A stretch of DNA of 25,242 bases from a virus: positions 1 through 25,242 of IMG/VR virus record IMGVR_UViG_3300035181_001420; one strand, given 5' to 3'. This document shows positions 21,056 through 23,003 of the stretch, piece by piece. A program made the position numbers and the translations under genes. The notes below the pieces were generated by a model. That model was not told the origin of the DNA. It searched no databases and saw only the letters and a list, made by a program, of their open reading frames with translations. Numbering within the stretch: position 1 is the first letter of the stretch; each line of letters opens with the position of its first letter.

Positions 21056-21068
21056 CTTATCTTTTTCA

Positions 21069-21464
21069 TGACATCCTCTGACATAATGACATCATTTTCA
21101 GCTTATATATACATATCATAATAAATAAGCATTCTAGACCCCCTATATATATATATTATTTTATTAAATATCTATATATATATATATATAAGGGGGTATG
21201 TCTAAAAATAAATCCATGGGTATAATCATTATACTATTGATGTATATTTGGAAATCGATGTCATTTTGTCATAAAATACTCTTTCCTCAATTTAAACAAT
21301 AACTTATCTTTTTAGGCCATGTCAGAGACTTTTCGTCATTTTTGCTTTTCCTTCAATATCCATTGGCTATTTTCAAATGACATCGATTTGTCTATTATGT
21401 CATTTGATGTCATTTTTTGACATGCCATGACATACCTTTTTCAGGTTTGTCATGGTTGATGTCA
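21069..21464. repeat. TGACAT repeat cluster; candidate origin or operator array
   Basis: Eleven exact TGACAT hexamers (either strand) start at 21069, 21079, 21087, 21258, 21319, 21378, 21397, 21407, 21418, 21428 and 21459. Spacing is 8-11 bp within two clusters (21069-21092 and 21397-21433). Many sites extend to TGACATCA or AAATGACATC. A 15-bp inverted pair, AAATCGATGTCATTT (21252-21266) and AAATGACATCGATTT (21375-21389), spans the right half. The clusters flank a TA-rich palindrome. Iterons plus an AT-rich unwinding element is the usual look of a replication origin; a multi-site operator is the alternative. No gene lies here: bases 21056-21464 lack coding frames on either strand. Confidence 0.6.
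21139..21196. repeat. C5(TA)n...(TA)nG5 palindrome
   Basis: CCCCC (21139-21143) followed by alternating TA mirrors a TA tract of about 20 bases ending in AAGGGGG (21190-21196), with a single-base offset, around an AT-only centre. It can extrude as a cruciform of roughly 17 bp per arm or melt easily. It sits between the two TGACAT clusters. It might serve as an unwinding element or as a bidirectional terminator with an unusual AT stem. Confidence 0.6.
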
Positions 21465-21725
21465 TTAAACCTTGGGGAAGATCCTATCATGGGACCACAT
21501 CGCAATAACTATACCCAATGATCCACCAAGAGCATAAAAGAAGAACTGGACTAAGTCTAATCCGCCTTCTGGTAATACCTTGAAAAGGAGATAATTACTC
21601 AATGTCATACCTATCGATGTTATAGCTGCTAACACATACTTTCTATGTGTAACATTTAGCTGTTGGAATCCTAGTAGGAATACTAGGAAGAATGAAGCGA
21701 AGAAAACTATAATAAGCTTTTCCAT
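21465..21725 (-). CDS. small membrane protein with three helices
   Basis: The frame is open to 21791, but the ATG at 21725 (MEKLIIVFFASF) has AAAGG seven bases upstream and starts the first membrane helix, so I take 86 aa. Hydrophobic segments lie at about 3-19 (KLIIVFFASFFLVFLLG), 30-48 (YVLAAITSIGMTLSNYLLF) and 58-78 (VQFFFYALGGSLGIVIAMW). Short polar loops and a basic C-terminus (SHDRIFPKV) complete it. I have an impression of similar small membrane proteins in other large phages but cannot name the family. Its stop codon touches the last TGACAT repeat. Confidence 0.65.
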   Translation of the reverse strand: MEKLIIVFFASFFLVFLLGFQQLNVTHRKYVLAAITSIGMTLSNYLLFKVLPEGGLDLVQFFFYALGGSLGIVIAMWSHDRIFPKV

Positions 21726-21861
21726 ATCAAACCTTTCTTTAGTGGGGTAAAAAAAGCCAGGATGAATTCTGACCTTTATAACTACTTTCACGTTTACTCG
21801 ACAGGGGATGTACAGATCTCCAAACCTTAGTACTCTGTAGATACTTGGTTTAGAAGACTTG

Positions 21862-22511
21862 GGTCCCGTATTAAGGGGTTGATTCTATTAGAATTAATAA
21901 TAGAGAATTGGCTAGTAGCTAAGCATAGGGACCTATCAAGATCCTTATGCATCTAGACTAAATCATCAAAATATAGAACCCCGTCTTTGTTCCGGACGGC
22001 CGCCGCGCTAGCGAGCGAGCCGTTACCGGTACGGTAAGATAATGTGCTGAAGTATCTCCAGCTAACCTTTTGGTTGTACTAAACTTGTATGAAAGTAGTT
22101 TGTTTTGAAACAGTAGACTAAAATTTCTCTGAGCAGGAGGCGCCTGCAGCTCATCCGGCGAAGGACTGCGTTCGGAAATTAATAAGCGTAGTGTAACGTA
22201 GCGTTTAATTCCGAGAGCTGTCCGGGGCGGAGTGGAAAATGAAGAAGTAACTTCTTCTTACTCCAAACGGAATGGTTACCGTAAGTAGCTGTACTCTACT
22301 TTAATCTTTGATACTGAAAAATACTGCAGGCATAGCCTGCGTGCACTCCAGCCTCTGGTGGAAATCTATCAGCGTTTGGTTACTTTTACGTGGCGTAGCC
22401 CGCAAGGGGCGTAGCTAGGAAAAGTACCAATGCTGAGTTGATTGTAACCAGTGGCTGGTGTGGGTGAAACACTTAGAGTAACTCTAAGCCCACTACTTGA
22501 TATACTATCAA
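21862..22511 (+). ncRNA. large ornate structured RNA candidate (~650 nt)
   Basis: This gene-free stretch is almost all hairpins. Examples: 21923-21950 (9 bp); 22023-22037 (TTACCG, loop GTA, CGGTAA); 22131-22152; 22172-22214; 22229-22264 (two stacked stems); 22283-22301; 22326-22340 (GCAGGC, ATA, GCCTGC); 22370-22435 (16 bp with two bulged U, enclosing a CCC-GCAA-GGG GNRA hairpin); 22447-22459; 22460-22493; 22497-22511. In three stems the non-Watson-Crick pairs (21928/21945, 22374/22431 and one inside 22191-22204) are G-U on the + strand but A-C on the - strand, which favours + transcription. No coding frame is supported. Size, density and phage setting recall GOLLD or ROOL RNAs, but class membership is untested. 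Ends and promoter are not defined; bases 21726-21861 show nothing firm. Confidence 0.65.
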
Positions 22512-22536
22512 AGACTTAAAACTTGAAACTTAAAGC

Positions 22537-22815
22537 TTATCGACCAACCAAGCTAGCAGCTGAGCGAGTAATGTCGGTCAATCCCTTGAAAGAGATATCT
22601 AGGCCACGGCAGATCTTCAGCAAAGTTGTGAGCTGAGGATTATATCTAGCATCGGCTACGATGTTCTGAGCGCGCTTGTGTGTATTGGAGATAGTTGTTT
22701 TTGACAACCCAGACGCTGCAGCCAAGTCACCTTGGGTGTAGCCCTTAGCTTCTTGGATGGCAACGATACGAGAAGCTAGACGGAATGGGATTGCAGATTG
22801 AATTTCGTTAGACAT
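22537..22815 (-). CDS. XRE/Cro-CI-like helix-turn-helix regulator
   Basis: The 92-aa protein has a five-helix XRE-type domain. The helix-turn-helix is at about residues 27-50 (TQGDLAAASGLSKTTISN), preceded by LASRIVAIQEAKG and followed by LTTLLKICRGLDISFKGL, which is the usual late helix. It ends after the DNA-binding domain, as single-domain Cro-like proteins do. It should bind short palindromes; an inverted repeat at 22856-22884 in its own leader is a candidate autoregulatory operator. The ribosome site AAGG lies eight bases from ATG. Its stop is 26 bases from the last hairpin of the structured RNA, which would converge with it. Confidence 0.8.
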   Translation of the reverse strand: MSNEIQSAIPFRLASRIVAIQEAKGYTQGDLAAASGLSKTTISNTHKRAQNIVADARYNPQLTTLLKICRGLDISFKGLTDITRSAASLVGR

Positions 22816-22884: not shown

Positions 22885-22917
22885 ATTTTAAAGTACCTTA
22901 GAGCTCTTCACAATGAG

Positions 22918-22973: not shown

Positions 22974-23003
22974 GAAAAATGGAGGCCCTTTCGGAACCTC
23001 CAT
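22974..23003 (-). terminator. rho-independent terminator after the HU gene
   Basis: On the - strand ATGGAGG (23003-22997) pairs with CCTCCAT (22985-22979), with an inner TTCCGAAAGGG loop region, and is followed by a T-run complementary to 22974-22978. It lies 29 bases past the HU stop codon and separates HU from the regulator. Confidence 0.72.

Follow-up and report, generated by a model that had tools for sequence, protein, structure and literature searches.

To our knowledge, only a handful of classes of very large RNA have been described in phages, and we know of no established function for the cages of GOLLD and ROOL. Both GOLLD and ROOL form RNA-only cages; the GOLLD linker sometimes contains tRNAs, and a ROOL member of 659 nt has been described (PMC12286853). 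An ~800-nt non-coding RNA of Vibrio phage ICP1, its most abundant transcript as reported, lies between gp139 and gp140 in a gene-free interval where the lysis cluster begins (PMC7567579).

We analysed a 25,242-base stretch of viral DNA (the window), which is a separate virus record. No DNA similarity to this stretch was found among 50,697 phage genomes. In protein searches, the window proteins matched Salmonella phage Arash and the group of Vibrio phage D181 at 29-38% identity; these matches identify the window as part of an Arash-like phage (~180 kb). Late genes lie on the plus strand up to 19331, and the genes from 19426 to the end of the window lie on the minus strand. Between two of these minus-strand genes, the interval 21792-22536 contained no ORF of at least 60 aa, which bore out the original prediction that the stretch is gene-free. 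Short ORFs of 20-41 aa were present in the stretch without support. The stretch most likely encodes a folded RNA of ~740 nt, with a predicted 5′ end at about 22495-22522 and a 3′ end at the terminator. The features of the locus are listed in the order of minus-strand transcription:

22979-23003, minus strand: terminator-like hairpin after the HU gene (consensus scan)
22885-22913, minus strand: candidate sigma-70-like promoter, TTGTGA-17-TAAAAT, upstream of the HTH gene (consensus match only)
22537-22815, minus strand: Cro/C1-type HTH gene (Pfam HTH_3, 4.7e-8), directly upstream of the RNA
22500-22527, minus strand: weak promoter candidate with a low score (−1.6), TTTCAA-N15-TAGTATAT, on the RNA's 5′ boundary
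21778-22522, minus strand (taken as sense): predicted large structured non-coding RNA (no ORF of at least 60 aa, folding z-scores, synteny in seven relatives)
22472-22488, minus strand: hairpin CUUAGAG-UUA-CUCUAAG, with similar hairpins in two relatives (L181, G017)
22345-22462, strand unassigned: longest arm, from folding energies, with 3x3 loops that read GUA/GUA and GGA/GUA on plus
22326-22340, minus strand: hairpin GCAGGC-UAU-GCCUGC (local hairpin analysis)
22241-22257, minus strand: hairpin GAAGAAG-UUA-CUUCUUC (local hairpin analysis)
22163-22223, minus strand: domain X, a stem, internal loop and hairpin AUUAAAC-CUACG-loop-CUACG-UUAAU, conserved in one relative (G009)
21780-22100, minus strand: 3′ domain, closed by a long-range helix of 11-12 bp (21780-21791 / 22089-22100)
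21749-21777, minus strand: intrinsic-terminator-like hairpin AAAGGUCAG-AAUUCAUC-CUGGCUUUU followed by more U (−8.7 kcal/mol, z −2.6)
21465-21731, minus strand: holin-like gene (PHROG 7045, 1.9e-14), downstream of the terminator
21056-21464, strand unassigned: AT-rich, origin-like palindromes past the holin gene, with repeats ATGTCA/TGACAT

The hairpin at 21749-21777 was not picked up by the consensus scan. The candidate promoter at 22500-22527 was the top minus-strand match to the phage promoter matrix within that interval. The hairpin after the HU gene would insulate an HTH-RNA unit from transcription further upstream, and because this hairpin (22979-23003) and the candidate promoter at 22913-22885 bound the unit, the HTH gene and the RNA may have a common transcript in the window.

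Folding of 21750-22530 gave −272.9 kcal/mol on the plus strand (z −6.6) and −250.7 kcal/mol on the minus strand (z −10.6), and no shuffle was equally good on either. Compared with 80 shuffles, 21778-22536 had z-scores of −7.7 (plus) and −7.0 (minus). The dense packing of stem-loops seen in the original prediction was therefore confirmed as structure on both strands; its extent was revised, as the real span is about 21778-22522. We are highly confident that this span is a structured-RNA gene. A 16-bp helix had been placed at 22370-22435. We observed that this arm is real and larger (22345-22462), but that it is broken up by internal loops and bulges and does not have 16 pairs in a row. The GNRA hairpin said to lie inside it is weak: either GCAA is closed by three G-C pairs with a G-G clash next to them, or a 5-nt GCAAG loop is closed by four pairs. 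In the tetraloop count, stems of 4 bp or more carried no GNRA tetraloop on either strand of the window.

We compared the element with all Rfam models, including GOLLD, ROOL, OLE, HEARO and raiA, and obtained no family match at E ≤ 5 in the window (both strands) or in its relatives. At gathering and relaxed thresholds, the matches apart from tRNA were chance-level terminator-like or repeat-like hits far below the cut-off, and none of GOLLD, ROOL, HEARO or OLE matched the window. The Rfam models for group I and group II introns recognised no catalytic core. Like the element, GOLLD is a large, multi-domain phage RNA of variable size that can have a tRNA within it, as one relative (G012) does; unlike GOLLD, the element has no covariance-model match at E ≤ 5 and no tRNA cluster in the window. 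ROOL is also phage-encoded and of similar length, but its model had no match in the window or the relatives. OLE, HEARO and the group I/II introns resemble the element as large structured RNAs and likewise differ from it in the lack of a model match.

The ICP1 RNA is like the element in size, in its ~1-kb ORF-less space, in adjoining a lysis gene, in having no tRNA near and in a terminator on the strand of its neighbours. It differs in its weaker folding (z −2.7) and shows no convincing sequence similarity in either orientation, and its flanking proteins, read by eye, have no evident resemblance to those of the element. Membership with the ICP1 RNA was not supported, as the two regions are not alignable. 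The scale, the setting and the architecture of the element recall those of GOLLD, ROOL and the ICP1 RNA. Because the Rfam models fail and the ICP1 region cannot be aligned, the element at most works like these three, and is not a member of any of them. The original prediction had left a choice between a known class, such as GOLLD or ROOL, and a new one; these comparisons support the new class and speak against the known ones.

Protein searches yielded ~30 related IMG/VR records. A search based on the HTH gene yielded no relatives, a motif scan of IMG/VR gave 24 matches (23 read as chance, the other being G009), and the DUF6378-like gene, searched against a set with one genome for each prokaryote species, returned a single short contig lacking the RNA region. 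The name DUF6378 for this neighbouring gene is our own reading; the window copy is phosphofructokinase-like according to PHROGs. We observed counterparts of the element in seven related IMG/VR phages (G009, G011, G012, G013, G017, G021 and L181), each gene-free, hairpin-packed and in the same gene neighbourhood. The members are few and diverged, and every relative with the element is a metagenome contig. Their length ranges from about 0.35 to 1.7 kb, with G011 and G012 at 1.5-1.7 kb, and the element of G017 is weakly structured (z −1.4). G009 is the nearest relative by its DUF6378-like gene (71% identity) and RuvC-like gene (44%), and has a gene-free, hairpin-rich stretch at the corresponding locus.

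Along the locus, an HTH-like gene comes first, often followed by a small IED..GKY protein; then come the RNA, the terminator, usually repeats and/or a DHH phosphoesterase gene, and the DUF6378-like gene. An HTH-like gene was present in the window, G011, G012, G013, G021 and L181 (relatives judged from translations) and was not seen in the G009 or G017 loci. The gene downstream of the RNA varies: a holin in the window, repeats in G009, G011 and G012, and a DHH gene in G021 and L181. The small uncharacterised protein (~53-65 aa, IED..GKY-like motif) adjoins the RNA in G011, G012, G013, G017, G021 and L181; three of its sequences were scanned and had no Pfam match. At several loci the last residues of its ORF are ..MLT*, ..LLT* or ..MML*, and the structured stretch begins there.

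Long gene-free stretches were screened in the complete phages Arash and D181 and in three further relatives. Arash has no clear counterpart, its largest gene-free stretch being 406 nt, and a 24-nt match found in four phages, Arash among them, was rejected as a coding coincidence inside a structural gene. D181 has two long gene-free stretches, at 98970-100066 (1097 nt) and 100714-101552 (839 nt). Origin-like AT-rich palindromes flanked by short repeats (TGACAT, TGACAAA, TGTCCA) occur at 21056-21464 in the window, 96427-97000 in G009, where the repeats are TGACAAA, and 104281-104930 in G013. The counterpart region of G017 (54171-51900, within L124) contains an HNH-like ORF, sequences resembling tRNA 3′ halves and several GAGCCG...GGTTATCTA elements that recur. 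These elements were not recognised by ARAGORN or Rfam and may be tRNAs interrupted by unclassified introns.

The members are only weakly similar in primary sequence, and pair counts were possible only for G011/G012 and window/G009, two sequences each. G011 and G012 have a common 1.3-kb core. On the sense strand, one stem is recast between them with a loop change from GAAA to UUCG, and for that stem RNAalifold showed double changes in two cases and single changes of G-U type in three. Between the window and G009, domain X kept 14/14 pairs, three of them with changes on both sides (slid controls, 0); this pattern was spotted by eye before testing, and the counts therefore overstate its significance. 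In the shuffle control built into the tool, 45 of 500 shuffles reached the observed value. A covariance model of domain X matched G009 and the window only in 1.56 Mb, having been built from those two. The search gave no confident copy beyond them; its weak top-ranked further match was in G012, on the sense strand (E 1.2). The whole-region alignment of the window with G009 beat 982 of 1000 shuffles. With orientation-aware alignment, reading both in the same orientation gave the greater similarity between the window and each relative (7/7), and did so in 20 of 27 pairs overall. The comparison of homologous intergenic regions thus yielded homologues with compensatory changes, in G011/G012 and in domain X of the window and G009.

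The RNA had been proposed to be transcribed against its neighbours. Our data do not support this: terminators, promoters, an embedded tRNA and the tetraloop exchange favour the strand of the neighbouring genes, and the minus strand is probably the functional one. A terminator hairpin with a U-run was found at the same end and on the same strand in 8/8 loci (relatives from sequence, two of them folded); this synteny was complete, and an upstream HTH gene was kept in most loci. G012 has a tRNA-Met inside its RNA region on the sense strand (L088:12939-13014; G012 about 132939-133014), which is absent from the otherwise similar G011. The original prediction had noted no tRNA cluster nearby; this holds for the window, in which no tRNA was found, but not for the element of G012. 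GNRA/UNCG tetraloops favoured the sense strand 9 to 1 over six loci, of which G011 and G012 are not independent.

Promoters pointed the same way. A phage promoter, TGGTATAA preceded by a TTCAATAAAT-like box, occurs in 15-58 copies per relative, almost only on the early-gene strand (G009, G011, G012, G013, G017, G021). Strand counts of TGGTATAA were 34:0 in G011, 23:0 in G013, 0:22 in G017, 2:25 in G009 and 7:51 in G012. In G009 this promoter is found at the RNA's 5′ edge; in G011, G012, G013 and L181 it closely precedes the small gene. The window has four good-scoring copies on the minus strand (20447, 21034, 23751, 25143), and none directly before the RNA.

We weighed these data against a functional RNA on the plus strand, running toward the HTH gene, in which case the minus-strand terminator merely ends the HTH mRNA. 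The plus fold of the window is the better one by 25 kcal/mol, and the big arm, the main argument for plus, is likewise more stable on plus by 17.6 kcal/mol (−62.8 on plus, z −7.4; −45.2 on minus, z −6.4). In the window, G009 and G017 it is the plus strand that has 3x3 loops of a stable type (GNA/GNA), local hairpins lean against the sense strand, and a 14-nt segment of the window plus strand matches the ICP1 sense RNA (E 0.07). Over the eight loci, the sense strand had the more stable fold in seven. G-U contacts in helices predicted on both strands numbered 10 on minus and 7 on plus in the window, and 84:65 over all eight loci, slightly favouring the sense strand. The argument from G-U versus A-C asymmetry, which had pointed to the plus strand, stood within the big arm but not overall, as the local hairpins of the window gave 2 for each strand and the contacts favoured minus. 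Consensus and promoter-matrix scans found no convincing plus-strand promoter or terminator, in the relatives it is the other strand that has the tetraloop swap, the tRNA and the terminators, and the window is co-linear with its relatives in the minus orientation. A plus-strand RNA is therefore improbable.

A 3x3 internal loop, UAC/UAC (GUA/GUA on the other strand), recurs in the window, G009 and G017. It is conserved though unfavourable on the presumed sense strand.

A second explanation keeps the minus strand and makes the structure a long 3′ UTR of the HTH or small-protein mRNA, which would protect or regulate the message and have no separate RNA job. In most loci a short gene does lie between promoter and RNA, and in several the small-protein ORF ends inside the first bases of the structured stretch. 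Against this, the G009 promoter is at the RNA 5′ edge, where only a 12-codon ORF is possible, the upstream gene is inconstant while the RNA region persists, and the element is far larger than usual 3′ UTRs. We regard a 3′ UTR without a role of its own as unlikely.

A cis-acting leader or attenuator would fit the position of the element upstream of the holin gene with a terminator in between, but the downstream gene is not constant and no Rfam riboswitch matched, which makes this very unlikely. Equally improbable is a DNA-level element of the origin-like repeats (replication origin hairpins or a primer RNA): repeats and AT palindromes lie near the element in the window, G009, G011, G012 and G017, but G013, G021 and L181 carry the RNA without adjacent repeats, similar repeats in G013 lie some 60 kb away, and the tetraloop exchange is of RNA type. 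A role as origin primer or leader was rejected, as the neighbour varies between members. More generally, control of a fixed neighbour gene is unlikely because the neighbours differ between members.

The best reading is that the element, which matches no catalogued RNA family, belongs to a new family, one of large phage RNAs comparable in kind to GOLLD, ROOL and the ICP1 ~800-nt RNA. Judged from sequence, it is a structured gene-free element with synteny, one conserved covarying domain and terminators on one strand. We assign a probability of about 0.6 to the whole reading, namely a new family of large structured minus-strand RNAs that act as RNA and are syntenic in Arash-like phages. The RNA would be transcribed from the minus strand together with neighbouring non-structural genes, would be released at the intrinsic terminator (21777-21749), and would fold into several domains and act as RNA. 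By analogy with GOLLD, ROOL and the ICP1 RNA, it would be abundant, architectural and made during infection, and an architectural function is the most likely role. It may self-assemble and may carry cargo such as tRNA; a tRNA is present within one member. A self-assembling scaffold is a tentative idea drawn from the same analogy. The stronger proposal, a third class of self-assembling phage RNA cage of up to 1.7 kb, unrelated to GOLLD and ROOL and able to enclose or carry tRNA, is doubtful.

The element keeps its position across a group of phages that has cultured relatives (Salmonella phage Arash, itself without an obvious copy). Its members would add to the sequences in which a common property of such RNAs, be it assembly, tRNA cargo or host targeting, can be sought. 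If an unrelated lineage does a similar thing, large structural RNAs would arise repeatedly in phages.
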